From a virus: a stretch of 64,000 nt of DNA. The notes beneath the pieces were generated by a model that worked only from the letters and a program-made list of their open reading frames with translations, was not told where the DNA came from and searched no databases. Location of the stretch: positions 1 through 64,000 of the IMG/VR virus record IMGVR_UViG_3300042691_029205; one strand, 5' to 3'. Below are positions 11,087-50,977 of this stretch, piece after piece. Each line of letters opens with the position of its first letter. Positions within the stretch are counted from its first letter, which is position 1. The position numbers were made by a program, and so were the translations under genes.

Positions 11087-12004
11087 ATGTTACTCCAAGA
11101 TTTAGAAAAGAAATCTTTAATTCAGCCGCCAGCTTGGTTGTCTCATAATACCCAATTATTAACTGTTATGGGTAGTCTTGCTTATGGTGTGAGTTCTGAT
11201 TCTTCTGATTATGATGTATATGGATGGTGTATTCCTCCACAAGGAATAGTATTTCCTCATCTAAATGGATTAATACCTGGGTTTTCTAAAAACATTCCAA
11301 AGTTTGACCAATGGCAACAACATCATATCTTAGATCAATCGGCCTTAGCTGGTAAAGGTAGAGAATATGACTTTCAAGTTTTTAATGTCGTTAAATATTT
11401 TGCGTTGTGTATGGAAAACAACCCAAATATGATTGATAGTTTGTTTGTACCGCAAAACTGTATTTTACATATCACTCAAGTTGGAAATATTGTTAGAGAA
11501 AATCGTAAGTTGTTTCTACATAAAGGATTATGGCCGAAGTATAAGGGTTACAGTTTTTCGCAGTTACACAAGAGTTTAGGTAAGAATCCAGAAGAAGGTA
11601 GTAAACGTAAAGAGTTACGAGATACTTATGGTATGGATACTAAATTCCTCTACCACGTTGTACGTTTATTGAGTGAAGCCGAACAAATGTTAGCTACTGG
11701 CGACCTAGATTTACAAGAGACTGGTCGTAGAGAACATATGAAGGCTATTCGTCGTGGAGAAGTACCAGAAGAAGAAATTCGTAAGTGGGCAGCAGACAAA
11801 GAGAAACAGCTAGAAGATTTATATCATAAGAGCCATCTTCCTTGGGGGCCGGATGAAAACAAGATCAAACAGTTACTTTTAAATGTATTAGAACACCATT
11901 ATGGTTCATTGGAAAAGTGTGTAACTCAACCTGAAAAGGCGGTAGAAGCACTTAAACAAATAGCTGAAATTATTAATACTAATCATAGGTTATTATATGG
12001 TTAA
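11087..12004 (+). CDS. RlaP/YcgL-type nucleotidyltransferase (305 aa)
   Basis: GSLAYGVSSDSSDYDVYG at residues 29-46 is the Pol-beta-fold signature GS...DxD; D41 and D43 would bind the metals. The length and the downstream HKSLGKN and KFLYHVVRLL segments match the predicted nucleotidyltransferases of COG3541 (YcgL/RlaP), which are associated with RNA repair. The neighbouring Thg1-like gene supports work on tRNA or other RNA ends. The substrate cannot be told from sequence. Confidence 0.75.
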   Translation: MLLQDLEKKSLIQPPAWLSHNTQLLTVMGSLAYGVSSDSSDYDVYGWCIPPQGIVFPHLNGLIPGFSKNIPKFDQWQQHHILDQSALAGKGREYDFQVFNVVKYFALCMENNPNMIDSLFVPQNCILHITQVGNIVRENRKLFLHKGLWPKYKGYSFSQLHKSLGKNPEEGSKRKELRDTYGMDTKFLYHVVRLLSEAEQMLATGDLDLQETGRREHMKAIRRGEVPEEEIRKWAADKEKQLEDLYHKSHLPWGPDENKIKQLLLNVLEHHYGSLEKCVTQPEKAVEALKQIAEIINTNHRLLYG

Positions 12005-12071
12005 TACAGAAATCTCCCAACAAATAGAAGAATTCTATCAATCAAAAATAAAACCACTAATCGGATATTGA
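11997..12071 (+). CDS. possible small peptide (24 aa)
   Basis: ATG overlaps the upstream stop (ATGGTTAA) and the frame runs for 24 codons to one base before the next ATG. The tight fit between neighbours is the only support. Confidence 0.3.
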   Translation: MVNTEISQQIEEFYQSKIKPLIGY

Positions 12072-12072
12072 T

Positions 12073-12261
12073 ATGATTACCCGCAAAGTAAAAATAGGTA
12101 AAATAGGTGTATCTAAAGCCATTTTAGGAAGAATGGAACCGGATTATATTATACAAATAGATCGAGAAGACAATCAAATTAGATGTGTCTTAACAAAAGA
12201 ACAACTACTACGACACATAAAAAGATGCTTTGCTTTATTAACAGAGGATATAGATGTATGA
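12073..12261 (+). CDS. hypothetical protein (62 aa)
   Basis: A small charged protein without recognised motif. It sits between the nucleotidyltransferase and the Thg1-like gene and overlaps the latter as ATGA, so it is co-translated with the RNA-repair genes. Confidence 0.55.
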   Translation: MITRKVKIGKIGVSKAILGRMEPDYIIQIDREDNQIRCVLTKEQLLRHIKRCFALLTEDIDV

Positions 12262-13031
12262 AAAACGATGCTCTCGGCAACCGTATGAAACTCTACGAAC
12301 AGGAAGAAGCAGGAAGAAAACTTAATCATCTTCTGCCAATAATAGCCCGTATAGATGGCCGCTGTTTTTCTAATTTTACAGCCGGTTTAGAGCGGCCTTT
12401 TGATACTGGTATGTCAGCCTTAATGGTTGAGGTAACTAAAGAACTAGTTCGCGAATTCAATTGTAATATTGGATATACTCAATCAGATGAAATTACATTA
12501 GTTTGGATTCCAAATTTAGATCATATAGAACGACAGATGATTTTTGGGGCTAAGGTAGCTAAGTTAAATTCAATTTTAGCTTCGTCGGCTACAATGTGGT
12601 TTCATACTATGAAGTCTAGATATTTACCAGACTCTCATTTAAATAAGAAAGCTACGTTTGATTGTCGAGTATGGAACGTACCATCTAAAATAGAGGCGGC
12701 TAACTGCTTAGTATGGCGTGAAATCGACTGTATGAAGAATTCTGTTTCTATGGCAGCTATGAATTATTTCAGCCACAAGACTTTAATAGGTAAAACCGGC
12801 AAAGAAAAGAAACAAATGCTGCTAGATATAGGTGTAGATTGGGATAATTATCCTAATTTTTTTAGGAGAGGTAGTTATATACAAAAAGTGCCAACCAGTT
12901 ATATCTTGAACGATGTTGGATATATTAGACATGAATTACATTACATGGAAATACCTTTACTTAAAGACATTAAAAATAAGTCTGAGGTATTATTCGATCA
13001 CAGTGAACCAATCTTAAAGGAGCCTGTTTAA
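12258..13031 (+). CDS. Thg1-like 3'-5' RNA polymerase (257 aa)
   Basis: IIARIDGRCFSNFTAGLERPFD (split here as IARIDGRCFSNF at 29-40 and GLERPFD) and IGYTQSDEITLVW at 71-83 are the two metal-binding motifs of tRNA-His guanylyltransferase and Thg1-like proteins: D33 on the first, D77/E78 on the second. Bacterial and archaeal Thg1-like proteins add nucleotides to the 5' end of damaged or mispaired tRNAs in the 3'-5' direction. The start at 12258 overlaps the upstream stop; longer forms in the same frame have no ribosome-binding site. The phage also carries tRNA-like genes with poor acceptor stems. Confidence 0.88.
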   Translation: MKNDALGNRMKLYEQEEAGRKLNHLLPIIARIDGRCFSNFTAGLERPFDTGMSALMVEVTKELVREFNCNIGYTQSDEITLVWIPNLDHIERQMIFGAKVAKLNSILASSATMWFHTMKSRYLPDSHLNKKATFDCRVWNVPSKIEAANCLVWREIDCMKNSVSMAAMNYFSHKTLIGKTGKEKKQMLLDIGVDWDNYPNFFRRGSYIQKVPTSYILNDVGYIRHELHYMEIPLLKDIKNKSEVLFDHSEPILKEPV

Positions 13032-13123
13032 TGTTATTCGCCACAACTTATTCGCCCGAATTTACATTTATGTTACTTATTTTCTGCTTAATTGGTTTGG
13101 TTTCCTTAACTAAAAAAGTTTGA
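13031..13123 (+). CDS. small membrane protein (30 aa)
   Basis: The ATG overlaps the stop of the Thg1-like gene (TAATG). The 30-residue product is one hydrophobic helix (FMLLIFCLIGLVSL) with a KK end. The stop is directly followed by hairpin copy B. Confidence 0.5.
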   Translation: MLFATTYSPEFTFMLLIFCLIGLVSLTKKV

Positions 13124-13145
13124 GTAGGGTTTCACCCTACAACCC
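13124..13145 (+). other. post-stop hairpin element, copy B
   Basis: GTAGGG-TTTCA-CCCTAC forms a 6-bp hairpin starting at the base after a stop codon; a further AACCC at 13141-13145 could pair with GGGTT instead, giving two competing folds. Confidence 0.65.
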
Positions 13146-13157
13146 AGGAAAAAACTA

Positions 13158-13176
13158 AGCCCAGCGGCGACTGAGC
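13158..13176 (+). repeat. 19-bp GC-rich box, copy 7
   Basis: AGCCCAGCGGCGACTGAGC immediately followed by the TTGACA of the next promoter. Confidence 0.8.
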
Positions 13177-13204
13177 TTGACAAATGAAAATTACAAGCTA
13201 TAAT
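13177..13204 (+). promoter_or_regulatory. sigma-70-type promoter
   Basis: TTGACA, 16-base spacer, TATAAT; full consensus, part of a duplicated hairpin-box-promoter unit (compare 10420-10505). Confidence 0.85.
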
Positions 13205-13244
13205 AACTTCATAACCCATTTCACTTCTTCAAAGGATTTTACAA

Positions 13245-14021
13245 ATGTCTCAAGTTAAAACAGTTAAAGTTTGCGGTCACACTCTGGATTTTTACAAAGA
13301 TAACCGAACCAAACACCCCGAATACAAGTCTAATCACCAAACCGAAGGTATGAGGTATCGTGAAAAGGGAGAAAGATTACAAAAAGGAGATATTATTTAC
13401 TATTATACTGGTGGCTCAGAACCAGTTTATGGTATAGCTGGTGATTTACGCGATAATCATTCATGTATTAGTGTACTATGCCCAAAAGACGCTCCATATA
13501 CCTTTGATTCAAATATCGAAGTAGTGCGATTTCAACGTGGGGATCGCGTAAAGGTATTGAGGGCTTCTACTAAAGAGGAAGATAGAGGCGGCAAGTGGAA
13601 TAATTCTTGGGTCGATGATATGAACAAAAATATTGATAAAGTTTTTACTGTTAGATCGGCATCCAACACAGGAATTCGTTTTCACGAAGTTGGTTTTGGC
13701 TATCCTTGGTTCTGTTTAGAAAAAGTCGAAGTAGAAACTACACCTAATAAGGTTGAAACAAAACCAAAAGTTGTTAATCGGCCACAAAAAACAATCATTA
13801 ACGTTGTCTTACAGCCTAATGATCGTGTTCGTTTTGATGGAGTAGAATGCCGAACAGCTATTGATAATTATGGAACGGCTTATTTTATTCAGAAAGACTG
13901 GCGTTTTCACAAAGTATTTGTATCTAAAGCTGTTTTAGATTCAAGCCTTAGTGGATTATTCAAAGCTAAAGTAGAATACTACAACAAAAAGTCTAAACGC
14001 TGGTTTAGGGTTGCACCATAA
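13245..14021 (+). CDS. hypothetical protein, two putative barrel domains (258 aa)
   Basis: Soluble. The central part has FQRGDRVKVLRAST and a C-terminal part has NDRVRFDGVECRT, both typical of small beta-barrels. The C-terminus is weakly similar to that of the protein at 10548. AAAGGA precedes the ATG and the promoter at 13177 drives it. Confidence 0.7.
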   Translation: MSQVKTVKVCGHTLDFYKDNRTKHPEYKSNHQTEGMRYREKGERLQKGDIIYYYTGGSEPVYGIAGDLRDNHSCISVLCPKDAPYTFDSNIEVVRFQRGDRVKVLRASTKEEDRGGKWNNSWVDDMNKNIDKVFTVRSASNTGIRFHEVGFGYPWFCLEKVEVETTPNKVETKPKVVNRPQKTIINVVLQPNDRVRFDGVECRTAIDNYGTAYFIQKDWRFHKVFVSKAVLDSSLSGLFKAKVEYYNKKSKRWFRVAP

Positions 14022-14047
14022 AAACCCGCAGTAGAGAACCAGTATAA

Positions 14048-14197
14048 ATGAACTATACTATTTGGGAAGTAAGATTTCGCTGGTCAACTGAATACTTTGC
14101 GGTTGACCCACTTTTATTTTTAATTTGGTCTATATTATTCATAATGGTTGTGCATAAAGGGTTTTTCGATGGATACGACTACTTTACCGATGGTTGA
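14048..14197 (+). CDS. small single-pass membrane protein (49 aa)
   Basis: The frame gives one hydrophobic segment (PLLFLIWSILFIMVV) with charged ends. It overlaps the next gene by 29 bases in another frame. No clear ribosome-binding site. Confidence 0.45.
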   Translation: MNYTIWEVRFRWSTEYFAVDPLLFLIWSILFIMVVHKGFFDGYDYFTDG

Positions 14198-14477: not shown

Positions 14478-14500
14478 AAATCCACAAGCAAGGAAAAACA

Positions 14501-15400: not shown

Positions 15401-15412
15401 GGAAAATACTAT

Positions 15413-15613: not shown

Positions 15614-15615
15614 TA

Positions 15616-15997: not shown

Positions 15998-16014
15998 AAA
16001 TAAGCAGCGTAGCT

Positions 16015-16830: not shown

Positions 16831-16833
16831 CGT

Positions 16834-20968: not shown

Positions 20969-21334
20969 ATGCCATACGATAGACCTCCTATTAAACTTAC
21001 GATGTTAATATTAGAGCAGGGTCATCACGAAGGTGCTAGATTAGCATGTATCCCACTTTTTGTTTATCATTATGATTTAACAAGAGAAAAGCTAATTAGT
21101 GTTTTTTTAGATAATATTAAATTAGTGTTACAAGAAACGAATAATAAACAAACGGTATATAATTGGTTACTAGATCAATTTAACTTGGAATCTCATGAAA
21201 CATGTGGAGACAAAGTTTGGGATCATTTAGATTCAATGGGAATTAAATTTATCCCTGATTTAGATATAGATATTAAAATAGACAACATTGTATTATTAGA
21301 CGTTTACTCACTAGAGGATGATTATAATGACTAA
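20969..21334 (+). CDS. hypothetical protein (121 aa)
   Basis: Not recognised; hydrophobic core segments alternate with acidic stretches and the C-terminus is very acidic (VYSLEDDYND). It overlaps the start of the PurA/PurZ-type gene. Confidence 0.6.
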   Translation: MPYDRPPIKLTMLILEQGHHEGARLACIPLFVYHYDLTREKLISVFLDNIKLVLQETNNKQTVYNWLLDQFNLESHETCGDKVWDHLDSMGIKFIPDLDIDIKIDNIVLLDVYSLEDDYND

Positions 21335-22652
21335 GGCTTTTATCGTCGTAGGACTTCAATTTGGTGATGAAACTAAGGGAGCAACAACAGATTACCTATG
21401 TTCGTTGTTTCCAGATCAGCGTAAGCTCGTAGTACGCTATAGCGGTGGCTCTCAGGCTGGTCATTCCGTAGAACACAACGAAAGTCGCCATATCTTTAAT
21501 AACTTCGGCAGCGGCTCTTTACAAGACGTTCCAACTTATTGGGATCGTCATTGTGTATTAAATCCCTACAGCCTGTTTTATGAAACAGAGAAATTAGTTC
21601 AATTAGGTTTAAAGCCAAAGATTAATATTCATCAACAATGTTTAGTCTCAACAATCTATCATCAGATTTTTAACCAGTATAGAGAAAGAAAACGTGGAGA
21701 CTTAAAACATGGTACTTGTGGTCATGGAATTGGTGAAACACGCTCTTATTACTTAAAATACGGCCAAGACGCTATCTTTTATCAAGATTGTTTTTTATCT
21801 CCGCAAGTTTTAGAAAACAAGCTCTATTTACTGAGAGAGCGACTACTTGAAGAAAGTAATTATGGAAAAGAGCTATGCGAAGAACTGTATAGCGTTGATA
21901 TTTTTCAAGCTAAGTATGTTATAGAACAAATAGTTTTTCAACAGAAGACAGGGAATAATTATATAACACCAATTAAAGAGCACGATCTATTTGTTTTTGA
22001 AGGTGCTCAAGGTATTTTACTAGATCAGAATTACGGATTTCACCCACATACTACATGGACAGATACTACGCCACGTAGGGCGTTGGAGTTATGTAGAGAA
22101 TGGGGTATTGAAGATGTTAAGATACTTGGTCTAACACGTACTAATACTACTAGACATGGTAATGGCCCGCTACCTACTTATAATCCAGAACTAACGGATG
22201 AATATCCAGACCAAACGAATACACATAATGAGTTCCAAGGTAACTTTAGAATTGGCGATTTAGACCTATCTATGTTGGAATACTCAAATGAGATTATTCG
22301 ACGTAGTTGTGGACGAGGTTTAGATGGTTTAGTAGTTAGTCATCTGGATCAACATCAAGATGGTTTGTATAAGACAAAAACATTGAACAAGACAGAATAT
22401 AAAAAATATTTCTGTCGAGAATTAAAATATCAAGGCTCTCTATTAAAACAGGAGGCATTGACATATGAACTGTCTTTATTACACGATAAGACTAGATACA
22501 ACTACCACGATAGTCTAAGATGTGATAAAATTTCTTTATACAATAAACTACAGTCTATTTTTCAATGCCCTGTGGTCATCGAATCTGATGGGGCGACAAG
22601 GAATCATAGACAAACAACGAAAGAGGGGCAGGAAATATTATGTATATCATAA
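21327..22652 (+). CDS. adenylosuccinate synthetase-family protein (PurA/PurZ type, 441 aa)
   Basis: GLQFGDETKG at residues 9-18 is the family P-loop; D14 occupies the place of the catalytic Asp of PurA. RYSGGSQAGHS, HGTCGHGIGETR, FEGAQGILLDQ and TRHGNGPLPT follow in family order. PurA joins IMP and Asp with GTP; the phage relative PurZ uses dGMP to build 2-aminoadenine nucleotides. As I recall, PurZ enzymes usually replace that Asp, so its presence favours PurA-like chemistry, but the sequence is divergent (ETKG for EGKG). The window also has MazG and HD proteins, the other two types of partner in the aminoadenine pathway. The ATG at 21327 follows GAGG. Confidence 0.82.
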   Translation: MTKAFIVVGLQFGDETKGATTDYLCSLFPDQRKLVVRYSGGSQAGHSVEHNESRHIFNNFGSGSLQDVPTYWDRHCVLNPYSLFYETEKLVQLGLKPKINIHQQCLVSTIYHQIFNQYRERKRGDLKHGTCGHGIGETRSYYLKYGQDAIFYQDCFLSPQVLENKLYLLRERLLEESNYGKELCEELYSVDIFQAKYVIEQIVFQQKTGNNYITPIKEHDLFVFEGAQGILLDQNYGFHPHTTWTDTTPRRALELCREWGIEDVKILGLTRTNTTRHGNGPLPTYNPELTDEYPDQTNTHNEFQGNFRIGDLDLSMLEYSNEIIRRSCGRGLDGLVVSHLDQHQDGLYKTKTLNKTEYKKYFCRELKYQGSLLKQEALTYELSLLHDKTRYNYHDSLRCDKISLYNKLQSIFQCPVVIESDGATRNHRQTTKEGQEILCIS

Positions 22653-31979: not shown

Positions 31980-32780
31980 ATGCTTAATTTTATTCTGCAA
32001 TCCAATTTAATCGAAAATGAAAACTTTGGATTAGTAGCAGAGAAATTAGGTCATAATATATTACGATATAACGATTTAAGTGAATATCTATCTATAGATA
32101 ACGGTCTTCCAACTTATGTTCGCTGCTCACTAGATCATTATCTTTCTTACTGGCGAAAGAACAGCCCAAATCCTGGTGTTTGTTTTGAAGCCTCCAACTT
32201 TAAATACCTAGAATACCAGCAATACTGGAACGGCTATCTACTTAATAACAATTTCATCGTTTGCCCGATATCTAATTTAACAGAAGAGTGGTATAATGAG
32301 TTTATTCATGGTGATATGTTTATACGGCCTAATTCTGGCTGTAAATCTTTTACTGGCCAAACAATTTTTAAATATAAAGACCTGAAACAAATTATTGATT
32401 TATACCGGCCATTACCAAGCGAACTAGCTATTTTCGCACCGGCTCGTCCAATTAGTAATGAAGCTCGCCTAGTTGTGGGGATTGACAAAGATGAAAAACC
32501 TGTTATACTAGCAGGAAGTATGTATCGTATTGATGGGAATGTTCAAAATGAGCGGATTAATAAGGATAGCCGATACTGGAAGTTCGGCCAAAAGGCGGCT
32601 GAACAAGTCCTAGAGAAGTATGGAAATCCTCCGTCTGAATTGTTTACACTTGATGTTTGTTCTGAAAGATGGCGGGATGAACTATATATAGTTGAACTTA
32701 ACTCTTTTGGATGTGCTGGTTTATATGATTGTGAAATAGAGTCGATTATTCATTTCATGGAAAAACAATGGACAACTTAA
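31980..32780 (+). CDS. ATP-grasp ligase, R2K/DUF4343-like, copy 1 (266 aa)
   Basis: FIRPNSGCKSFTGQ, ELAIFAPARPISNEARLVV, VILAGSMYR and ELFTLDVCSERWRDEL...VELNSFGCAG reproduce the ATP-grasp order: lysine-strand, R-E-x-R core and metal-binding D...E.N. The closest match in the window is the protein at 41746, so the phage has two. R2K-type ATP-grasp enzymes from phages are predicted to form amide bonds on peptides or proteins. It is followed by a GNAT acetyltransferase. Confidence 0.75.
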   Translation: MLNFILQSNLIENENFGLVAEKLGHNILRYNDLSEYLSIDNGLPTYVRCSLDHYLSYWRKNSPNPGVCFEASNFKYLEYQQYWNGYLLNNNFIVCPISNLTEEWYNEFIHGDMFIRPNSGCKSFTGQTIFKYKDLKQIIDLYRPLPSELAIFAPARPISNEARLVVGIDKDEKPVILAGSMYRIDGNVQNERINKDSRYWKFGQKAAEQVLEKYGNPPSELFTLDVCSERWRDELYIVELNSFGCAGLYDCEIESIIHFMEKQWTT

Positions 32781-34136: not shown

Positions 34137-34562
34137 ATGTCTTATATTGGAAAAATTGACTCATTTAGCGGTAAATATAGATTCTTATCTAACTTTTATC
34201 CTTGTATCATTGAATACGAAGGTATAACTTATCCTTCTACTGAACACGCATTTCAAGCGGCAAAATTCCTAGATTTTAAAATTAGAGAAGAAATAGCCGC
34301 TTTGAAAAAACCTGTGGAGGCTAAACGATTTCCAAAAGGAAAAACTATCCGTGAAGATTGGTTCGATGTGTCATTAAAAATAATGAAAGATGTGAATGTT
34401 GTTAAATATAGACAACCTTCTTTTAGAGATCGGTTATATGATACTCGCGGCTATGAACTAGAAGAAGGTAATACCTGGGGCGATACTTTTTGGGGTACTT
34501 GTGATGGTGTAGGAGAGAATCATCTAGGTAAAATCCTAATGGAGATTAGAGATGAGTTATAG
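34137..34562 (+). CDS. NADAR-family N-glycosidase (YbiA-like, 141 aa)
   Basis: SGKYRFLSNFYPC, YPSTEHAFQAAKF (residues 32-44) and WGDTFWGTCDGVGENHLGKI are the hallmark motifs of the NADAR/YbiA family. Members cleave N-glycosidic bonds, including riboflavin intermediates and, in recently studied NADARs, ADP-ribose attached to guanine in DNA. In a phage this suggests reversal of host ADP-ribosylation. The length is typical. It overlaps the next gene by 11 bases. Confidence 0.88.
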   Translation: MSYIGKIDSFSGKYRFLSNFYPCIIEYEGITYPSTEHAFQAAKFLDFKIREEIAALKKPVEAKRFPKGKTIREDWFDVSLKIMKDVNVVKYRQPSFRDRLYDTRGYELEEGNTWGDTFWGTCDGVGENHLGKILMEIRDEL

Positions 34563-35040
34563 TCAGCCTAACTATATATTCCTAGATATTGATGGTGTCT
34601 TAAATAACCATAATCCGCTAGAAAATAACACATGTGGGATAAATAAGGAAAATATAGCCGCCCTTAATTTAATAATGGACGAGTGTGATCCGTTTATAAT
34701 ACTATCTTCCGCCTGGAGAAGTCTAATAGCGAAAAAGGATTTGTCTCTACGTGGCTTTGAAATCATGCTACAAACACATGGCTTGAAGTGTTTTAACAAA
34801 CTGGTGTCTCATACTCGTTTTCAAATGTTTCAGGATAACAGAGAAGAAGAAATATTAGAGTGTGTTTTAGATAATGATATTAAAAACTATGTAATTTTAG
34901 ATGATTTACCGCTAGACTTCACTAATCTTAACATTCCAGCCTATCGTTTTATAAAAACCGACCCTCATTTAGGACTTACAATCGAAGATGTACAAAAGGC
35001 AATATCTGTTTTTAAAGAGCCGCCAAATGAAGCTATATAG
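34552..35040 (+). CDS. HAD-like phosphatase, HAD_SAK type (162 aa)
   Basis: YIFLDIDGVLNNHNP at residues 8-22 is HAD motif I (DxD), IILSSAWRS is motif II, and YVILDDLPLDF is motif IV (DD). The SSAWR form is typical of HAD domains of Swiss-army-knife RNA-repair proteins, which remove 2',3'-phosphates or 5' ends before ligation. It fits with the RNA ligase, kinase and Thg1-like proteins encoded elsewhere in the window. Confidence 0.75.
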   Translation: MSYSQPNYIFLDIDGVLNNHNPLENNTCGINKENIAALNLIMDECDPFIILSSAWRSLIAKKDLSLRGFEIMLQTHGLKCFNKLVSHTRFQMFQDNREEEILECVLDNDIKNYVILDDLPLDFTNLNIPAYRFIKTDPHLGLTIEDVQKAISVFKEPPNEAI

Positions 35041-41003: not shown

Positions 41004-41262
41004 GTGTAAGCCGGAAGATTTTGGGTTTTTTGGCCTAGCTCTAGCTGGAGAAGTCGGCGAAACCTGCAACCTTTTAAAAAAGGTGCTACGTGGCACAAAA
41101 CAACTTAATCTAACTACACTTGATGCTCTAGCTAGTGAATTAGCTGACTGTCAAATGTATTTAGTTTTGTTAGCTGCCTCGCTAAATATTAACCTTGAGG
41201 AAGCTGTAATTGTGAAATTTAACGAACGTAGTAAAGACTTAGGGATAGATATTACATTATGA
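40927..41262 (+). CDS. MazG-like nucleotide pyrophosphohydrolase (111 aa)
   Basis: FGLALAGEVGETCNLLKKVLRG and LASELADCQMYLVLLAASLNINLEEAV (each is given here only in part: GEVGETCNLLKK, SELADCQMYL) carry the EExxE...ExxD metal ligands of all-alpha NTP pyrophosphohydrolases. They convert (d)NTPs to monophosphates. The phage MazZ of the 2-aminoadenine pathway belongs to this superfamily and hydrolyses dGTP, and MazG can also lower ppGpp. The first 25 codons overlap the previous gene. Confidence 0.82.
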   Translation: MALSIKKLQKTASQRTLLLNKQGTYKCKPEDFGFFGLALAGEVGETCNLLKKVLRGTKQLNLTTLDALASELADCQMYLVLLAASLNINLEEAVIVKFNERSKDLGIDITL

Positions 41263-41756
41263 AAAAATTAATTCTCATTCGCTCTGCTTCTGGTGGAGGT
41301 AAGAGCTATCTAGCTAAACAAATCGCCTATGAAGCCGTTATAGATAATAAGTCCGTTGTTATTCATAATACTGATTCTGTTTGGATGAGCAAGACTAATT
41401 TTACAGATGAAGCCTATTACTTTGACTTTAATGTTTTATATCAGGCTCACCAAATCAACCAAGCTAAAACGGCTATCTCTATGGAACGCGGAATTAACGT
41501 AGTTATCATAGACAATACGAATACCACCCTGAAAGAAGTCAAGGTCTATGTTGATTTAGCTGTCAAATACGGCTACACAGTAGAAGTAGTGCGGCCCAAT
41601 ACACCCTGGTTTGGTAATATTGATGAACACTTCGCTAGAAACACGCATAATGTTCCTAAAGACGTTATCCAAAAACAGATGGATCGATTGAGTAGATCGC
41701 CTGACTCTGAAGTTTATGAATACTATAATAGTATAAGAGATTGCAATGTCTCCTAA
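41259..41756 (+). CDS. polynucleotide kinase-like P-loop enzyme (165 aa)
   Basis: Walker A RSASGGGKSYLA at residues 8-19; IDNTNTTLKEVKVYVDLAVKYG and VEVVRPNTPWFGN followed by RNTHNVPKD match the kinase domain of N4BP2/PNK-like proteins that phosphorylate 5'-OH ends of RNA or DNA. It would prepare ends for the RNA ligase at 45180. The ATG overlaps the MazG stop and the end overlaps the next gene. Confidence 0.78.
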   Translation: MKKLILIRSASGGGKSYLAKQIAYEAVIDNKSVVIHNTDSVWMSKTNFTDEAYYFDFNVLYQAHQINQAKTAISMERGINVVIIDNTNTTLKEVKVYVDLAVKYGYTVEVVRPNTPWFGNIDEHFARNTHNVPKDVIQKQMDRLSRSPDSEVYEYYNSIRDCNVS

Positions 41757-42576
41757 ATGGTTAATTGAAAAAGATACATTAGAATGTACAGAAAAGCTAA
41801 TTGAATCTTTGGTTAAATTTAATATTGAATATCAAGAGATTCATAGTTCTGTTCGTTTTAAAGATGATTTTCTTTCTATTTTTAAACCGTATGATTGTGT
41901 AATCTTCTATGGTTCATTGGAACTCGCTAAAAGAATTCGTAAAAAAGCTAAGTGGGTTCCAGGGGTGTTTTATAATGTCGAACAATATAATTGCACATAT
42001 TACTATGCTAAATTAGGCAAGTATTTATTAAATGAAAATTATATTATGATGCCTTATGGCGAATTAAGCCGCCGTAAAGAATTTTTATATGAAATGTTCG
42101 GAGAAGATAGAGCAGTATTTATTCGTCCTAATCGAGGTGACAAAATCTTTACTGGTAAGGTAGTATATAAAGAAAACTTTGAAAAAGATATTCGATTATT
42201 TAACTTTTACCAAATGGCAGACGAAGAATTAGTTATAGTTGCCAGACCTATTAATATTACTTGTGAATGGAGATTTGTTGTAGTAAACCAAGAGGTTATT
42301 ACTGGTAGCGTGTATAAAGAAAATGATCGTGTTGGCAGTAAAGCTGGCTATGATATTAAAGCATTTGAATTAGCAAGTAAAATTGCGAAGGAATATAATC
42401 CTGATCCGGCATATGTAATAGATATTTGTTTGACTAAAACTGGCGATTATCGCTTAATGGAAGTTGGATGTTTTAGTTGTGCAGGAATGTACTTATGTGA
42501 TACAGATATTATTGTAGAGAAAGTTTCAGACGTTGTATTAAAAGAATGGAGAAATTACAATGAAGGTTGTTGCTAG
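41746..42576 (+). CDS. ATP-grasp ligase, R2K/DUF4343-like, copy 2 (276 aa)
   Basis: FIRPNRGDKIFTGKVV, ELVIVARPINITCEWRFVV, ITGSVYKEND and YVIDICLTKTGDYRLMEVGCFSCAG line up with the protein at 31980 over the whole length, so the two are paralogues of one amide-ligase family. The catalytic R/E/D/E/N set is kept in both. The substrate is unknown. It is followed by a secreted repeat protein with Gly-Arg-Tyr units. Confidence 0.75.
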   Translation: MSPKWLIEKDTLECTEKLIESLVKFNIEYQEIHSSVRFKDDFLSIFKPYDCVIFYGSLELAKRIRKKAKWVPGVFYNVEQYNCTYYYAKLGKYLLNENYIMMPYGELSRRKEFLYEMFGEDRAVFIRPNRGDKIFTGKVVYKENFEKDIRLFNFYQMADEELVIVARPINITCEWRFVVVNQEVITGSVYKENDRVGSKAGYDIKAFELASKIAKEYNPDPAYVIDICLTKTGDYRLMEVGCFSCAGMYLCDTDIIVEKVSDVVLKEWRNYNEGCC

Positions 42577-44103: not shown

Positions 44104-44242
44104 AGCTATATCGTTGCTAACCACAACTAGCCTAAATCCCAGGTGAATGGTACTTGAGTGTACGGGATACGACGAGTCTGACGACTGTGGTGGTCGCTAG
44201 ATGGCCTTCGTTGGAGTAAGTAGGTAGCGACACTTACATTAA
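44104..44242 (+). ncRNA. structured non-coding region
   Basis: No gene seen on the + strand. The stretch is richer in GC than its surroundings and has several pairings: ACCACA (near 44120) with TGTGGT (near 44186), ATCCC with GGGAT around a GTAC-TTGAGT-GTAC hairpin, and AGTC-TGAC-GACT. It may be a decayed tRNA or a phage RNA, and it leads straight into the tRNA-like element at 44243. Confidence 0.4.
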
Positions 44243-44315
44243 CCACTAAGTAGCTTAATTGCTGGTAAAGCGGCTCTTGGCCAGAGAGAAGAGGATTCAA
44301 ACGCCTCCTAGTGGA
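44243..44315 (+). tRNA. degenerate tRNA-like element (73 nt)
   Basis: Acceptor CCACTAA/CTAGTGG (six pairs, mismatch at the seventh), D arm GCTT/AAGC with a GG-containing loop, four-pair anticodon stem, T loop TTCAAAC in a stem with one mismatch, discriminator A and no encoded CCA. The total length is normal. The anticodon loop lacks the usual U33 in one register, so the identity (Gly GCC or Ala GGC) cannot be fixed. Confidence 0.4.
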
Positions 44316-44543: not shown

Positions 44544-45113
44544 ATGCAGGTATTCCTAGATATGGACGGAGTTTTAGCAGATTTCCCGTCTGCCGTGTGC
44601 AACGCACACAATCGCCCAAATCCATATACTGATCCAAATAACTTTGGCAAAGATATATTAGAGTGCTGGCCCGATATGTGTAAAAAAGACTACTGGCTTC
44701 CAGCGGAGTTTGATTTTTGGGCTAATCTTAAACCGCTGCCTGATTTTGAAGAATTGATCGGTATTATTAAGGAATTCGTCCCGCTCGAAGAAGTCTGTAT
44801 TTTAACCTCTCCAAGTCGTAATCGCGGCTGTAAGCCTGGAAAACTCAAGTGGATAGAAAAATACTTACCAGAAATCAGCGAGAAAAACATCTTTTTCTGT
44901 TCTGAAAAATGGCGGTTTGCCCTTGACAAAGACGGAAAACAGAATATACTTATTGATGACACATCTAAGAAAACCGAGCCTTTTATCAAGGCTGGTGGCG
45001 AAGCATATTTAGTGCCTCGTCCTTGGAATCATCATTTTATTTGGCGTGATGAACCATACGAATTATTACCAAAAATTTTAAAAGATTGGATGAAGGCGAA
45101 CAAAAATGTCTGA
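44544..45113 (+). CDS. HAD-family 5'-nucleotidase-like protein (189 aa)
   Basis: FLDMDGVLADFPSAV at residues 4-18 is HAD motif I (DxDGVLAD) as in deoxyribonucleotidases; ILTSPSRN is motif II; NILIDDTSKKTEPF is motif IV. The length and the cap position agree with the NT5C/YqfW type, which dephosphorylates (deoxy)nucleoside monophosphates. AGAGG precedes the ATG. It would act in nucleotide salvage or in balancing the dNTP pool. Confidence 0.75.
   Translation: MQVFLDMDGVLADFPSAVCNAHNRPNPYTDPNNFGKDILECWPDMCKKDYWLPAEFDFWANLKPLPDFEELIGIIKEFVPLEEVCILTSPSRNRGCKPGKLKWIEKYLPEISEKNIFFCSEKWRFALDKDGKQNILIDDTSKKTEPFIKAGGEAYLVPRPWNHHFIWRDEPYELLPKILKDWMKANKNV
44923..44950 (+). promoter_or_regulatory. intragenic sigma-70-type promoter
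   Basis: TTGACA, 16-base spacer, TATACT within the 5'-nucleotidase-like gene; it would drive the RNA ligase gene. Confidence 0.6.
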
Positions 45114-45179: not shown

Positions 45180-46487
45180 ATGATTACTAAAATTTACCCA
45201 GGTTCTATCAATTATACCTGCACTGTTGTAAAATTACCGCACAAGCAAGTTATTCAGGGTTTAGACAACCTTGTTAATGTTTGTATATTTGGTAATAACT
45301 GTCTAATTTCTAAAGACTCTGATGAAAATAAGCTCTGGCTGTTCTTTCCTTCTGGTACTATATTATCAGAGAAATTTTTGGCCGCAAATAACTTATATCG
45401 TCACTCTGAGCTAAACGCGGATAAGACCAAAAAGGGCTTCTTTGAAGATAACGGTCGTGTTAAGTCTGTTAAGTTTAAGGGTGTAGTATCTACCGGATTT
45501 TGTATTCCCGTTTCTGCATTAGGAGAGATGGGACTTGTATATACAGATTTGAATGTTGGTGACGAGTTTAATGAGATTGATAATGAATTTATCTGTAAAA
45601 AGTTTATAAATCGCCACTTAGAATCATCTAAGTCTCCAAAGATTAAGACTGGTCGTGTATTAGATGAAGTAGTTAATTCACGTTTAGTACCTGAGCATGA
45701 CGATTCATCTCATTTAATGCGTAATACTCGAAAGATGGATAGAAATCCAATTGTAGCTGTAACACATAAAATGCACGGCACAAGTTTACGGGTGTTTAAA
45801 GCACCAGTAAAGCGTCCATTACGTTGGTATGAACGCCTGTATGCATATTTTGGCGGAAAAATACAAGATGAAGTCTATGACTATGTTGTAGGTTCTCGTC
45901 GTGTAATTAAGTCTATTGGATTTAAGACTTTGAGTGGTAAAGAACACTTCTACTCCGAGGATTTGTGGTCAAAAGCAGCAAAAGAATACTTTGATGGCAA
46001 ATTGTTCGATGGAGAAGCTGTTTTTTGTGAAATCGTAGGTAAGGACTATACGAAAAAGGCAATACAACCTGGATATACTTATGGCTTTGAAACGCCTAAG
46101 ATTTTTATCTATCGTATTGCTAATATTAATCATCAAGGTGTAGAAGTTGATCTTCCATATGCTCAGATGAAAATTAGAGCAGATCAATTAGGTATACCTG
46201 TTTGCCAAGAGTTATTTTATGGTCGTTTTAATGATTTTTTAGAGCAATTTAAAGCTGAAGGAAATACATTAGACGAAAAAATAGAAGATGTTTTCTATAA
46301 AAAGCTACTTGATAAACCTGATCCTGTTGACCCAACTGTGGTTAATGAGGGTTATGTTGTGCGTATAGATGATATTTATCCAAAACCAGAAATGTTAAAG
46401 GCTAAATCTCCTTTGTTTATCAAGGGCGAATCGGATTTAGCAGACAAAGGTAACTTAGATATAGAGGATCAACAAAGTGAAGAATGA
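45180..46487 (+). CDS. RNA ligase, Rnl5/DRB0094-like (435 aa)
   Basis: An N-terminal OB-like region (about 1-160) precedes the nucleotidyltransferase domain. VTHKMHGTSLRV holds motif I with the likely adenylated K197. Later come LFDGEAVFCEIVG (motif IIIa/IV region), IFIYRIA and EGYVVRIDDIYPKPEMLKAK (motifs IV-V). The order OB domain first and KxHGTS motif is that of the Deinococcus-type RNA ligase family, which seals nicks with 3'-OH RNA and 5'-phosphate. It completes the repair set with kinase, HAD_SAK and Thg1-like proteins. Confidence 0.82.
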   Translation: MITKIYPGSINYTCTVVKLPHKQVIQGLDNLVNVCIFGNNCLISKDSDENKLWLFFPSGTILSEKFLAANNLYRHSELNADKTKKGFFEDNGRVKSVKFKGVVSTGFCIPVSALGEMGLVYTDLNVGDEFNEIDNEFICKKFINRHLESSKSPKIKTGRVLDEVVNSRLVPEHDDSSHLMRNTRKMDRNPIVAVTHKMHGTSLRVFKAPVKRPLRWYERLYAYFGGKIQDEVYDYVVGSRRVIKSIGFKTLSGKEHFYSEDLWSKAAKEYFDGKLFDGEAVFCEIVGKDYTKKAIQPGYTYGFETPKIFIYRIANINHQGVEVDLPYAQMKIRADQLGIPVCQELFYGRFNDFLEQFKAEGNTLDEKIEDVFYKKLLDKPDPVDPTVVNEGYVVRIDDIYPKPEMLKAKSPLFIKGESDLADKGNLDIEDQQSEE

Positions 46488-47079
46488 TTATATGTCTCTA
46501 TCGGATATCCAGAAGGAAATGGACTTTTGGATTAATTATAACCAGCCTCCAAAAGACTTTAAACACAAAGCCTTTTATGTAGATTTTTTCGATTTTAAAC
46601 AGGTGAGTGGCGACTGTTTAGAGATTGGATGTGCTGGTTCTCCGTTTATTAGTTATGCAGATGAAGTTAATCCATATTTAAATCTAGAATTACTAGACCC
46701 ACTTATGGATGAAATAGTTCGTATTCCTAAGTATTCATATTTAGAAAAGTATACACGGTATCAGACTTCTCTACTTGATTTTAGAACATGGCAATCATAT
46801 GATTATATTATTTGTTTGAATGTATTAGATCATTTTGGTCAGGCACATGTAAATTTCCTCAATAAAATTTTTAATTTATTAAAAGTCGGCGGCTATTTAT
46901 ACTTGTACTATGATATTCGGCCAAAATATTTAGACGGGCATTATCCAATAGATCACCTAGCTGTACATAATCATATAAGCAATATATATAATATACGCAA
47001 AGAATCTCTGGATGTAAATCCTGTTCATAACGGTTGGTCTGGTGTGCGATCTTCTTATAGAGGTGTATTGCAGAAATGA
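46477..47079 (+). CDS. class I SAM-dependent methyltransferase-like protein (200 aa)
   Basis: GDCLEIGCAGSPF is the SAM-binding motif I, NLELLDPLMDEI motif II, and YDYIICLNVLDHF with LLKVGGYLYLYYDIR are motifs IV and V. The substrate is not evident. The start is GTG behind GAGGA. It overlaps the ligase and is followed by an FkbM-type methyltransferase and a glycosyltransferase. Confidence 0.75.
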   Translation: MKNDYMSLSDIQKEMDFWINYNQPPKDFKHKAFYVDFFDFKQVSGDCLEIGCAGSPFISYADEVNPYLNLELLDPLMDEIVRIPKYSYLEKYTRYQTSLLDFRTWQSYDYIICLNVLDHFGQAHVNFLNKIFNLLKVGGYLYLYYDIRPKYLDGHYPIDHLAVHNHISNIYNIRKESLDVNPVHNGWSGVRSSYRGVLQK

Positions 47080-47645
47080 ATGTCTTATTAGATTGTGGTA
47101 GCCACTTTTTTGAGGGTCTTTATAAACTCGACAAAATCTATCATTTTGGTAATTATTGGCGGATTGTTTGTTTTGAAGCTAATCCTGAAACATATAACCA
47201 ATCACTAAATAATAAGCCCAATTTTAAGAATTTAGATATTAATAATATAGCTATTTCAGATAAATCCGACTTTGTGATAGTCAATTGCGACAAAGACTAT
47301 GGAGAAGGTTCTAATATATTAGAATATCCACCAGTTAATGACATAGTATATGGGAATACTTTTAATTTTAATAGACGGGAGATTTGTTCAGAGGATATAG
47401 TTGACTCTATAGATTATGAAAACCTAACACCTCATGATAAACTTTTCATTAAGTTGGATATCGAAGGCTCAGAGTATCGAGTTATTCACCGTCTTATTGA
47501 AACCGGCTACTATAAAAAGATAGACACTCTCTATGTTGAATTTCACGACAGGTTTTTTGAAGCTAGAGAATATTACCAACAGCTTAATCGGTTATACGTT
47601 GATTTTTTAACCAAGAGCGGCGTTAAAGTTGTACTTTGGGATTAA
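47076..47645 (+). CDS. FkbM-family methyltransferase (189 aa)
   Basis: MNVLLDCGSHFFEG (motif I), VCFEANPETY (the acidic end of strand 2) and KLFIKLDIEGSEYRVIHRL (the FkbM signature LKIDVEGxE) are present. FkbM enzymes O-methylate sugars or polyketides. Sandwiched between another methyltransferase and a glycosyltransferase, it may decorate a sugar on DNA, virion or host surface. Confidence 0.8.
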   Translation: MNVLLDCGSHFFEGLYKLDKIYHFGNYWRIVCFEANPETYNQSLNNKPNFKNLDINNIAISDKSDFVIVNCDKDYGEGSNILEYPPVNDIVYGNTFNFNRREICSEDIVDSIDYENLTPHDKLFIKLDIEGSEYRVIHRLIETGYYKKIDTLYVEFHDRFFEAREYYQQLNRLYVDFLTKSGVKVVLWD

Positions 47646-47646
47646 T

Positions 47647-48318
47647 ATGAAACTATATACATTGTTTACCGATAGTCACTCTGAATTACTACAGCGGTAT
47701 TTTTTACCGTCTTTATTTAAAGTATTGCCGATTTTAGAAGTAGTTGTGAAAAAAGTGCCGCAGTTATGTGAAACGGCCACATATGGAGAAAACGGCTGGT
47801 TCGAGACAATGCTTCGTAAAGCAGAGTATCATATTCAATCTTGCGAAGAGACGATGGGCGGCTATTTTATTTATATGGACTGCGACATTCAATTTTTCCG
47901 GCCATTTTTACATGAAATGTTGGTGGAAATAAACGCCGGAGACTATGATTTAGCGTGCCAGGACGACGTTTTTCCTTTTGGGAACCGACCAACCTACTGT
48001 GCTGGACTTTTTATCTGTAAATCTTCGGATAGAACTTTACGATTTTTCAAATCCTTATATAATAGTATGTTGGCTAATCAGCGACACAAAGATCGTTACA
48101 CCGACCAAATTGCCTTAAACGAAAATTTAGATCAGATTAAACACAGCTTACTTTCACATCGATTTTATACTATTGCTCATAGTAAGCCCAAACTATGGAA
48201 TCAGGATTACAACATTCAAATTCCTAATGATTTGTTAGTACATCATGCTAACTGGACACATGGTATTGAGAATAAGATATCATTATTGAACTTCGTTAAA
48301 GAACGACAAAATGTTTAG
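47647..48318 (+). CDS. nucleotide-sugar glycosyltransferase-like protein (223 aa)
   Basis: GGYFIYMDCDIQFFRPF (DxD motif), CQDDVFPFGNRPTYCAGLFICKS (in part) and RYTDQIALNENL match GT-A-type nucleotide-diphospho-sugar transferases (PF03407-like). A metal and UDP- or GDP-sugar would bind at the DCD. The ATG at 47647 lies two bases after the previous stop. Confidence 0.72.
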   Translation: MKLYTLFTDSHSELLQRYFLPSLFKVLPILEVVVKKVPQLCETATYGENGWFETMLRKAEYHIQSCEETMGGYFIYMDCDIQFFRPFLHEMLVEINAGDYDLACQDDVFPFGNRPTYCAGLFICKSSDRTLRFFKSLYNSMLANQRHKDRYTDQIALNENLDQIKHSLLSHRFYTIAHSKPKLWNQDYNIQIPNDLLVHHANWTHGIENKISLLNFVKERQNV

Positions 48319-48694
48319 TTATTTGTTTAAATTTTTTAATTCATTATATTATTACTTTTTCCCGACATCTAAAAGACAGGGAATTAAGTATTATTATAAT
48401 GTATTAGTATATATAACAAAAAAAGACCATCAATTTAAATGCAATGAAATAGATAATGTTTTTGGTATTATAAAATTAAAGGATAAAAACCGTAAAGTTT
48501 ATTATCTTCCTATATCTGATAAGTTAGATAAAACTGTAGATGAATGTATAAATGAATATTGCAGAGTGAATAATAAGATTACCTGTTTTGTGTATCTTTT
48601 TTATTTTAATGATAAATTGGTTAATGTGTATGTAACCAACGAAATTGACTTAACCTGTGAAGGTTGTCAGTTAATGAAAGAAGTTTTATTATAA
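48311..48694 (+). CDS. hypothetical protein (127 aa)
   Basis: An N-terminal hydrophobic, aromatic stretch (MFSYLFKFFNSLYYYFFP) that may insert in the membrane, then a beta-rich domain. Not recognised. Confidence 0.6.
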   Translation: MFSYLFKFFNSLYYYFFPTSKRQGIKYYYNVLVYITKKDHQFKCNEIDNVFGIIKLKDKNRKVYYLPISDKLDKTVDECINEYCRVNNKITCFVYLFYFNDKLVNVYVTNEIDLTCEGCQLMKEVLL

Positions 48695-48705
48695 AGGGTT
48701 TAATC

Positions 48706-49128
48706 ATGGCTAGTTTTAACAATGTTGTTTTGGTTGGAAATGTAACAAGAGACGTAGAAGTACGCTATACACCAGGAGGGGCTGCTGTTACTGATATTGG
48801 ATTAGCAGTAAATGAGCGGTATAAGAAGGGTGATGAATGGATGGAAGAAACCGTCTTTGTGGATGTTACTTTATGGGGTCGTCAAGCAGAAGTAGCAGGC
48901 GAATATCTAACTAAAGGTTCCCCTGTTTTAATTCAAGGAAAGTTGCGTCTCGATTCTTGGGAACAAGATGGACAAAAACGATCTAAACTCAAGGTTGTAG
49001 CAGATACGATGCAGCTTTTAGGGTCTAAGAAGGATAAAGTAGAAGGTGAAAGCGAACCAGAACCAAAGACCGCTAAACCTAAAAAGAAGGCTACTAAGGA
49101 TAGTGATACTGAGGAAGTGCCTTTTTAA
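48706..49128 (+). CDS. ssb: single-stranded DNA-binding protein, SSB-1 (140 aa)
   Basis: The OB fold begins MASFNNVVLVGNVTRDVEVR; AVTDIGLAVNERYK, ETVFVDVTLWGRQAEVAGEYL and SPVLIQGKLRLDSWEQDGQK follow in bacterial SSB order. The tail is acidic and ends DTEEVPF, the tip that recruits partner proteins. The EETxFVDVTLWGR...GEYLxKGSPV wording is close to SSBs of Planctomycetes and relatives. AAGGG precedes the ATG at 48706. Confidence 0.93.
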   Translation: MASFNNVVLVGNVTRDVEVRYTPGGAAVTDIGLAVNERYKKGDEWMEETVFVDVTLWGRQAEVAGEYLTKGSPVLIQGKLRLDSWEQDGQKRSKLKVVADTMQLLGSKKDKVEGESEPEPKTAKPKKKATKDSDTEEVPF

Positions 49129-49129
49129 C

Positions 49130-49142
49130 AACGGTGGTATAA
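49130..49142 (+). promoter_or_regulatory. AACGGTGG-TATAAT motif, variant copy
   Basis: AACGGTGGTATAAT overlaps the ATG at 49142 by its last base. It has the AACGGTG core with one extra base before a -10-like hexamer; it may serve the gene at 49322. Confidence 0.35.
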
Positions 49143-49321
49143 TGGGATCAACCTGTTGGGATGAAAATATTAGGCTCGCTGAAAAAGTTGGCGAGCTAGA
49201 AGTCTCTCTTAAAAAAGAGCGGGATTATAATATTGAATTAAGATCACAAATTCATGATCTTGAGATAGAACTAGCCTCTCTAAGAGATTCTCCAACTGTT
49301 AGATTTTTTCGGGAAGATTAA
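49142..49321 (+). CDS. small coiled-coil protein (59 aa)
   Basis: A nearly continuous coiled coil (KVGELEVSLKKERDYNIELR). It ends one base before the start of the P-loop ATPase gene. Not recognised. Confidence 0.55.
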   Translation: MGSTCWDENIRLAEKVGELEVSLKKERDYNIELRSQIHDLEIELASLRDSPTVRFFRED

Positions 49322-49840
49322 ATGAGCACAAAAATCATTAATCTATTAGCGTCTCCGTGTAAGGGTAAATCGTCATTATCCCACTCTATTGTCGGTGAAA
49401 TGAAGAAATTACACTTACATGTAGAACATGTCTCCGAGTATCCAAAAGAGCTAGTTTATTCTGGTCGGCTGCATGATTTGTCGTGTCAACCGGCTGTTTT
49501 TGGGCGAATGTTGGAAAAAATCTGGCTTTTATATGATAAAGTGGACTATATAGTAGTAGATGGCAGCTTGTTGTTGTCTGCGGTGTATGGTACTGATGTA
49601 TGGCCAACTAGTTTCCAGCGTTCGGTAATAGATATTTATAACTCGTTTAATAACTTAAACTTCTATTTACAAGGAAGCTATACACCTTATAAACAAGAAG
49701 GGCGGCTGTCTGAGCATAGCCAACGAGATATAGATTCAGAAATTTTACGTTTGTTGGTTATGGAAGATATTAAATTTATTTCCCTGCCAATAGACACAGA
49801 TCGCGTTAGTACAATACTAAACTATGTTTTACACCAATAG
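49322..49840 (+). CDS. NadR/AAA_28-like P-loop ATPase (172 aa)
   Basis: Walker A LLASPCKGKSSLS at residues 8-20; VSEYPKELVYSGR; YIVVDGSLLLSAVYG; and a final RDIDSEILRLLV...FISLPID are typical of phage AAA_28 proteins related to the nicotinamide-ribose kinase domain of NadR. They are often encoded next to NAD or nucleotide genes. A role in NAD(P) salvage is possible, which would connect with the ADP-ribose enzymes. Confidence 0.72.
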   Translation: MSTKIINLLASPCKGKSSLSHSIVGEMKKLHLHVEHVSEYPKELVYSGRLHDLSCQPAVFGRMLEKIWLLYDKVDYIVVDGSLLLSAVYGTDVWPTSFQRSVIDIYNSFNNLNFYLQGSYTPYKQEGRLSEHSQRDIDSEILRLLVMEDIKFISLPIDTDRVSTILNYVLHQ

Positions 49841-49860
49841 AAAGTAGAGATTGAATTATT

Positions 49861-50214
49861 ATGGCAATGTCTGATGTTAATATTAATGTTATTATGGGTA
49901 ATTTAACTCACGACCCTAAATTGAGTTATACTCCTGGTAACACACCATTTTGCAATGCACAAATCGCAAGTAATTGGAACAAAGGCCCGAAACCTGCTGT
50001 ATTGTTTCAGGAAATTCGGCTTTACGGGACTACTGCTGAGTTGCTGGTCAAAGAAGGCTATAAAGGTAAGAAAATTCAAGTTACAGGCCACTTAGAAACT
50101 AAGTCGTTTGAAGAAGACGACGGTAAAAAGTTATCGAAAAACGTATTATATGTAGAAGACCTCAAGTTTATAGGTGGTCCTGCTGAGAAGCAAGACTATG
50201 ACTCAGTTAATTAA
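49861..50214 (+). CDS. second single-stranded DNA-binding protein, SSB-2 (117 aa)
   Basis: VNINVIMGNLTHDPKLSYTPGN, FQEIRLYGTTAELLVKEGYKGKKIQVTGHLETKSF (in part: KGKKIQVTGHLETKSF) and VLYVEDLKFIGG follow the SSB OB fold. It lacks the acidic DDxxPF-type tip, ending EKQDYDSVN. It could form mixed complexes with SSB-1 or protect a different DNA. Confidence 0.85.
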   Translation: MAMSDVNINVIMGNLTHDPKLSYTPGNTPFCNAQIASNWNKGPKPAVLFQEIRLYGTTAELLVKEGYKGKKIQVTGHLETKSFEEDDGKKLSKNVLYVEDLKFIGGPAEKQDYDSVN

Positions 50215-50512
50215 ACTCCTGATCTTTATTTTTCGGTTTAAAAATTATATGGATGAAACACCAGTAGATAATCCAGAACAGCCCACAAAAAAACCCAAAA
50301 AACCCAAAAAGGCTAATAGTACACAACTACGAGCTTGGTGGGATAAGCATAAAAATAAGCTATATATTGTTGCGGCTATTCTTGGTGCTATTGGTGTATC
50401 GAACGCAGATCGTTTAGATATTGTCTATATTCTAGAGTCGGCCTTAACTGTTCCCGAAAGACTTGACAATCTCGAAGAACGTGTTAAAATACTAGAAGAG
50501 AAAACAAAGTAA
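50198..50512 (+). CDS. membrane protein with Pro/Lys linker and coiled coil (104 aa)
   Basis: A hydrophobic N-terminus (LIKLLIFIFRF), a Lys/Pro-rich linker (TKKPKKPKKAN), a second hydrophobic segment (LYIVAAILGAIGV) and a C-terminal coiled coil (LDNLEERVKILEEK). The ATG overlaps the end of SSB-2. It has the look of a small envelope protein; function unknown. A promoter for the tRNA region lies within its last part. Confidence 0.6.
   Translation: MTQLIKLLIFIFRFKNYMDETPVDNPEQPTKKPKKPKKANSTQLRAWWDKHKNKLYIVAAILGAIGVSNADRLDIVYILESALTVPERLDNLEERVKILEEKTK
50463..50490 (+). promoter_or_regulatory. promoter of the tRNA region
   Basis: TTGACA, 16-base spacer, TAAAAT near the end of the membrane-protein gene, about 130 bases before the first tRNA-like element. 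Confidence 0.7.
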
Positions 50513-50518
50513 TTTACT

Positions 50519-50617
50519 AGTAACAACGTCATTCCATCGTTGTAAAACTCATGGAGTCCACCAGGGACAAAAAGCTGGTAGTCTAAAACTCCGTAAATAA
50601 GACTTTAAAAGTGGACG
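50519..50617 (+). ncRNA. structured RNA leading the tRNA cluster
   Basis: A hairpin ACAACG-TCATTCCAT-CGTTGT is followed by a branched element closed by GTCCAC (50556-50561) and GTGGAC (50611-50616), with inner arms CCAG/CTGG and AGTCT/AGACT. The outline recalls a decayed tRNA without a T arm. Confidence 0.4.
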
Positions 50618-50619
50618 GT

Positions 50620-50690
50620 AGGACTTTAGTGTTAATGGTAGCACAACGCCATTAATAAGGCGTAAGATCGGTTCGATTCCGAATGTCTGT
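50620..50690 (+). tRNA. atypical tRNA-like gene with 8-nt anticodon loop
   Basis: D arm GTGT-TAATGGTA-GCAC, anticodon stem ACGCC/GGCGT with the loop ATTAATAA (8 nt instead of 7), T arm TCGG-TTCGATT-CCGA, acceptor AGGACTT/ATGTCTG with a mismatch at position 1, a G:T at 2 and a T:T at 6. Anticodon AAT (Ile) fits best with T33 and A37; TAA is the alternative. No CCA is encoded. Confidence 0.5.
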
Positions 50691-50827
50691 TTACAGTACC
50701 AGCTATCCCTCTAGGTGTATTATGACTAGTCGCACCAATGGAAATAATGGGCTGGTCAATGGAGGTTAGATCATTCCTCAAAAATGACCTGTTTGTGGTG
50801 ATGTTCAGTAAAAACTTCACTTAATAC
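50691..50827 (+). ncRNA. spacer RNA between tRNA genes
   Basis: No gene seen. Foldable: GGTCA...TGACC enclosing GAGG/CCTC, and GTGA...TCAC just before the Met tRNA. Confidence 0.35.
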
Positions 50828-50900
50828 TGCGAGTGGAGGGTGTGGTCATCCAAGGTGTCTCATAAGCACCAAAAATGTAGTTCGATTCTACAATTCGCAA
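50828..50900 (+). tRNA. tRNA-Met (CAT)
   Basis: Acceptor TGCGAGT/ATTCGCA (7 pairs, one G:T), D arm GGA/TCC, anticodon arm GGTGT-CTCATAA-GCACC with anticodon CAT, T arm TGTAG-TTCGATT-CTACA (5 perfect pairs), discriminator A. CCA is not encoded. It could also be the Ile tRNA whose C34 becomes lysidine. The D stem is weak and position 8 is G. Confidence 0.82.
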
Positions 50901-50904
50901 CTAA

Positions 50905-50977
50905 GCGTCTATAGTGTTCAACGGCAGCATGTTAGTCTTCCAAACTAAAAGTTTCAGTTCAAATCTGAATAGACGCT
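50905..50977 (+). tRNA. tRNA-Gly (TCC)
   Basis: Acceptor GCGTCTA/TAGACGC (7 perfect pairs), D arm GTGT/GCAT with TTCAACGGCA loop, anticodon arm TTAGT-CTTCCAA-ACTAA with anticodon TCC, T arm TTCAG-TTCAAAT-CTGAA, discriminator T. CCA is not encoded. It lies four bases after the Met tRNA. It would read GGA and GGG codons, and GGA/GGT are frequent in these AT-rich genes. Confidence 0.92.

Follow-up and report, generated by a model that had tools for sequence, protein, structure and literature searches.

We analyzed bases 1-64,000 (hereafter, the window; G+C content 35 %) of the 78,910-base virus record IMGVR_UViG_3300042691_029205 from the IMG/VR database and found that this phage encodes a genuine set of RNA-repair enzymes that belongs to an already known type of phage RNA-repair complement: an RlaP nucleotidyltransferase, a Thg1-like protein, a HAD_SAK-type phosphatase, a P-loop kinase of the polynucleotide kinase (Pnk) type and an ATP-dependent, Rnl5-like RNA ligase. 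The best explanation of these families, to which we assign a probability of about 0.65, is that they form a dispersed kit for healing and sealing RNA ends that would keep tRNAs usable in infection by repairing host or phage tRNAs that are cut or trimmed in its course. This reading is based on the enzyme families, their intact motifs, the neighborhood of the Thg1 and RlaP genes, and how close together these families lie in other phage genomes. The five protein assignments of the original prediction, which had been made from the sequence alone, are upheld by family matches above the respective cut-offs, with the kinase being the weakest case, and its description of the kit as dispersed is accurate because the genes are scattered across 35 kb, RlaP and Thg1 being the only neighboring pair. 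The RNA-repair interpretation given there is likewise compatible with the families, the motifs and the company that these genes keep elsewhere (PMC7824862, PMC2904730), whereas the accompanying proposal that the phage edits its own tRNAs finds no support. The five genes, as well as the small open reading frame (ORF) and the four tRNA or tRNA-like genes described below, are all located on the plus strand.

RlaP (11087..12004), an RNA-ligase-associated nucleotidyltransferase with a Pol-beta fold, matches PF10127 (48 bits, cut-off 23, E = 1.7e-12) and phrog_388 (3e-43), and its GS and DxD motifs are intact (GSLAYG..SDYDVYG); 60 relatives with 41-61 % identity are present in IMG/VR. It is followed by an ORF of 62 amino acids (12073..12261), identified from the ORF list and the sequence, and by the Thg1-like gene (12258..13031). 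The stop codon of the 62-aa ORF and the ATG of the Thg1-like gene overlap as ATGA, an arrangement that makes coupled translation of the two likely. The Thg1-like protein matches PF04446 (100 bits, cut-off 29.2, E = 1.1e-28), and its nearest solved chain is the Thg1-like protein (TLP) of Bacillus thuringiensis, BtTLP (4kgk; E = 2e-31, 112 bits, compared with 49 bits for the runner-up chain). The metal-binding carboxylates D33 (within ARIDGR), D77 and E78 (within QSDE) are invariant in an alignment of nine phage proteins. The motif HINNLYN, which is characteristic of eukaryal Thg1, is missing and DCMKNSVSMA is found at that place. Judging by these features, the protein is of the TLP type, not a eukaryal Thg1, with a predicted capacity for template-dependent 3'-5' addition to truncated tRNAs. 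TLPs rebuild the terminal part of the 5' strand of the acceptor stem with the 3' strand as template, and BtTLP repairs the 5' ends of a range of truncated tRNAs in vitro (PMC3701042). The window protein shares the TLP-type family with BtTLP but is borne by a phage and adjoins RlaP. The phage L033 carries two Thg1-like genes in tandem (9156-9980 and 9998-10804).

The phosphatase (34552..35040) matches HAD_SAK_2 (PF18143; 74 bits, cut-off 27.5, E = 1.8e-20) and keeps the HAD motifs DIDGVLN (DxD), SSAW (S) and DD. The kinase (41259..41756) matches AAA_33 (41 bits, cut-off 27, 2e-10), the polynucleotide kinases of phrog_505 (2e-14) and, significantly albeit weakly, T4 Pnk (8e-4); it keeps GKS as well as D39, presumably the equivalent of the catalytic aspartate of T4 Pnk. 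The 3' end of the kinase gene is overlapped by the second of two paralogous R2K-type ATP-grasp genes (31980-32780 and 41746-42576; both phrog_7313).

The RNA ligase (45180..46487) matches PF09414 (41 bits, cut-off 27, 2.5e-10) and phrog_968 (1e-59), and motif I (K197-x-H-G), E284, E390 and K407 are invariant across nine relatives. The predicted structure, of moderate confidence (predicted local distance difference test, pLDDT, 64), has a strand-rich N-terminal region. The RNA ligase of Naegleria gruberi (PDB 5cot), which we take to be the solved example of Rnl5, is the top hit of a mixed profile of nine members (E = 3e-23) and also the best Foldseek match of the model (E = 4e-12, TM 0.3-0.4), in both cases over the full length, although it is not recovered with a profile from the narrow subfamily of the window ligase alone. 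The two enzymes are about 14 % identical and differ in motif I, which in the Naegleria ligase is K-x-D-G, as implied by the names of the PDB mutants (K170, D172). The match to the DRB0094 model reaches only 17 bits. Directly upstream of the ligase gene lies that of a second HAD protein of the NT5C, or deoxyribonucleotidase, type (44544-45113), which may function in nucleotide metabolism or as an additional end-healing phosphatase. Three genes follow the ligase (46477-48318): the product of the first weakly resembles methyltransferases, the second (47076) encodes an FkbM-type methyltransferase, and the third (47629) has no family assignment.

Queries of IMG/VR with Thg1 and ligase peptides returned no close relatives, and comparisons are therefore limited to more distant phages. 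Thg1 is present in 12 of 32 RlaP records, and 40 Thg1 records include RlaP in 18 cases and an RNA_ligase-family protein in 26. Of the 30 records that hold both RlaP and Thg1, 7 have them no more than 6 kb apart, compared with 1.9 expected (P = 0.0015, or 0.006 with the window excluded), with the qualification that 6 kb is one of five thresholds looked at and that several of the records are related. RlaP is located near an RNA ligase in four phage loci: in L101, L107 and L114, a ligase of the window's type is found beside it, and L125 combines Thg1, RlaP and this ligase type inside 3.5 kb; in the window, RlaP and the ligase are separated by 33 kb. A tRNA nucleotidyltransferase, a nucleotidyltransferase matching RlaP, Thg1, an RNA ligase and Pnk are encoded within approximately 11 kb in Vibrio phage D69, and in Aeromonas phage phiA009 Thg1, RNA ligase 1 and, adjoining the latter, a relative of the window kinase are found inside 3.5 kb. 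Thus, these genes are clustered in D69 and phiA009 but dispersed here, and the neighboring ligases of those two phages are annotated as the RNA ligase 1/tail-fibre attachment type, unlike the window ligase. Models of a comparable kit have been published: in bacterial neighborhoods, Thg1 was noted in 2010 to accompany polynucleotide kinase and RNA ligase (PMC2904730), and a 2021 survey of jumbo phages reported RlaP, Thg1, kinases, phosphoesterases, RNA ligases and a CCA enzyme (PMC7824862). The complement described in that survey comprises the same enzyme families in one genome alongside phage tRNAs, whereas the record analyzed here is 78.9 kb long, may be a fragment, and has few tRNAs and an Rnl5-like ligase. 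Large phages often carry such five-enzyme sets, which could in principle mend broken tRNA ends.

The logic of healing and sealing is shared with the repair of PrrC-cut tRNA-Lys by Pnkp and Rnl1 of coliphage T4. The kinase and phosphatase of T4 are fused in one protein, and we know of no RlaP or Thg1 in that phage. In the scheme that we infer for the present phage, with regard to catalytic steps, substrates and nuclease alike, a host ribonuclease would cut or trim tRNAs, the HAD_SAK phosphatase would remove 3' phosphates and the Pnk-type kinase would phosphorylate 5'-OH ends. RlaP would then restore nucleotides lost at the 3' end of the break, the Thg1-like protein would extend trimmed 5' ends in the 3'-to-5' direction with the opposite strand as template, and the Rnl5-like ligase would seal the break. 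Restoration of nuclease-cut tRNAs is plausible on these grounds, and the general view is that phages use such kits against hosts that cleave their own tRNAs; neither a cut tRNA nor a nuclease was seen in the window, and the target would be host tRNAs, phage tRNAs or both. Several observations weigh against joint action of the enzymes in tRNA repair. The genes are interspersed with unrelated ones along the 35 kb, and the statistic for the closeness of RlaP and Thg1 is modest, with some of the records being related. The kinase does not keep the position of the T4 Pnk arginine, which we take to lie near the catalytic aspartate, and could have another substrate. Furthermore, the scanned proteins, a set that leaves out many small ORFs of a record that may itself be a fragment, included no recognizable CCA-adding enzyme, RtcB or cyclic phosphodiesterase.

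An unlikely, yet the most serious, alternative is that the genes were acquired independently and perform separate jobs without acting jointly, the kinase and the HAD proteins, for example, in nucleotide metabolism. Such an explanation would account for the dispersed positions, with RlaP and Thg1 as the sole neighbors, and for the failure to detect RlaP in over half of the Thg1 records, and it is favored by the second HAD protein (NT5C, 44544) and several nucleotide-metabolism genes in the record. It leaves unexplained, however, why the same families are found near one another in D69, phiA009, L125, L101, L107 and L114.

For the tRNA genes of the record, we built a covariance model, R1, from 45 gap-free phage tRNAs and ran it unfiltered over the whole record. 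Four candidates stood out, namely tRNA-Gly (37.6 bits), the element at 50620 (28.0), tRNA-Met (26.1) and the element at 44243 (21.7), with the next score being 13.5, and no further tRNA-like genes were found in this search. The original prediction counted two good tRNAs, which is correct for tRNA-Gly(TCC) (50905..50978), a canonical tRNA detected by ARAGORN and passing Rfam with 54.2 bits, but not for tRNA-Met(CAT) (50828..50901), which is detected by ARAGORN, has a poor D arm, is not reported by Rfam and scores below the 50620 element with R1. The prediction further mentioned at least two tRNA-like genes with mismatched acceptor stems and odd anticodon loops. The degenerate gene at 50620..50690 fits this description: it has an 8-nt anticodon loop (AUUAAUAA), A1-G72 and U6-U67 mismatches, a G2-U71 wobble next to A1-G72, and a T stem of 4 bp. 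Its Rfam score (27.7 bits) is just below the gathering threshold of 29, and its R1 E-value is 2e-6. ARAGORN finds this gene at the -ps90 setting, at which shuffling produces 0.38 hits per 64 kb; chance is therefore an unlikely reason for its location beside two tRNAs of the same strand. The other degenerate gene (44243..44315; R1 E = 2e-4 over the record), for which no coordinates had been given, is real, but its acceptor stem is bulged by one A rather than mismatched; it also has an A53-G61 mismatch and the Lys-CUU-like loop CUCUUGG, its anticodon stem is all but missing, and it was undetected by Rfam and by ARAGORN at -ps75. We consider it most likely that both are real, decaying phage tRNA genes rather than designed enzyme substrates.

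The stretch of about 140 noncoding bases (44104-44242) that precedes the 44243 gene folds no better than shuffled sequences, has no Rfam match and no relative that we could find. The z-scores of the noncoding stretches examined for structured RNA were -0.04 (44110-44235), -1.55 (50510-50700) and -0.59 (50690-50830), Rfam returned nothing above chance in them except the tRNAs, and comparison of two noncoding regions revealed no shared sequence.

Phage tRNAs with changes in the anticodon loop have been reported (PMC10264068), for mycobacteriophages such changes have been proposed to provide escape from host anticodon nucleases, and the Lys-CUU-like loop of the 44243 gene and the 8-nt loop of the 50620 gene could be taken as signs of such selection, in which case both would be working tRNAs. 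We regard this as improbable because the lesions are not confined to the loop but extend to the acceptor, T and anticodon stems, which suits decay. No IMG/VR relatives of the 50620 gene were found with the patterns tried.

Less probable still is that the Thg1-like protein edits the defective tRNAs of the phage by removing mismatched 5' nucleotides and replacing them with the 3' side of the acceptor stem as template, as in Dictyostelium mitochondria. A TLP-dependent process of this kind has been described (PMC3701042), and the A1-G72 and G2-U71 pairs of the 50620 gene fall inside the zone of TLP action at the 5' end of the acceptor. However, A1-G72 is the only one of at least six lesions in the window that lies in this zone; the U6-U67 mismatch, 8-nt loop and short T stem of the same gene, and every lesion of the genes at 44243 and 50828, are beyond reach. 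For a wider comparison, we used 728 distinct ARAGORN tRNAs from Thg1-bearing phage stretches together with 208 from phage records that have RlaP but yielded no Thg1, and left tRNA-Met out of the mismatch count because initiator tRNAs are mismatched at 1-72. Among the remaining 870 tRNAs, mismatches at acceptor positions 1-3 amount to 25/(679x3) with Thg1 and 7/(191x3) without it, that is, 1.2 % per position in both groups, bearing in mind that ARAGORN can miss strongly mismatched tRNAs, that the Thg1-negative records may be fragments and that the groups are phylogenetically unmatched. The excess of mismatches at position 1 comes mostly from initiator-type Met tRNAs. Relaxing ARAGORN to -ps90 adds 125 weak tRNAs to the 728 and 48 to the 208, and weak tRNAs are therefore no more common in the presence of Thg1. 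These 870 phage tRNAs argue against editing of encoded mismatches, so that repair of damage is favored as the role of phage Thg1-like proteins. That the 50620 transcript is matured through TLP rebuilding of its 5' end, perhaps giving an 8-nt-loop tRNA that host nucleases could not cut, strikes us as far-fetched.

Two further potential correlates of Thg1 were discarded. Records with and without Thg1 show broadly overlapping tRNA counts, which apparently track record size. Addition of G-1 to tRNA-His is unsupported, with a G at -1 in 14 of 21 tRNA-His genes from Thg1-positive phages and 3 of 6 from those without it, both small numbers; no tRNA-His was found in the record.

In related huge-phage loci, several tRNAs have an amber-reading anticodon (reported by ARAGORN as 'Pyl') and are likely suppressors, and the RNA ligase frame of one relative (G040) contains an in-frame TAG. 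The final 15 kb of the record encode a ribonucleotide reductase, PhoH, a UvsX-like recombinase, a DnaB-like helicase and a primase. Elsewhere in the window, the gene at 21318-22652 encodes an adenylosuccinate-synthetase-like protein (phrog_1211, annotated as a 2-amino-type synthetase), for which a link to modified adenine in the phage DNA is possible.

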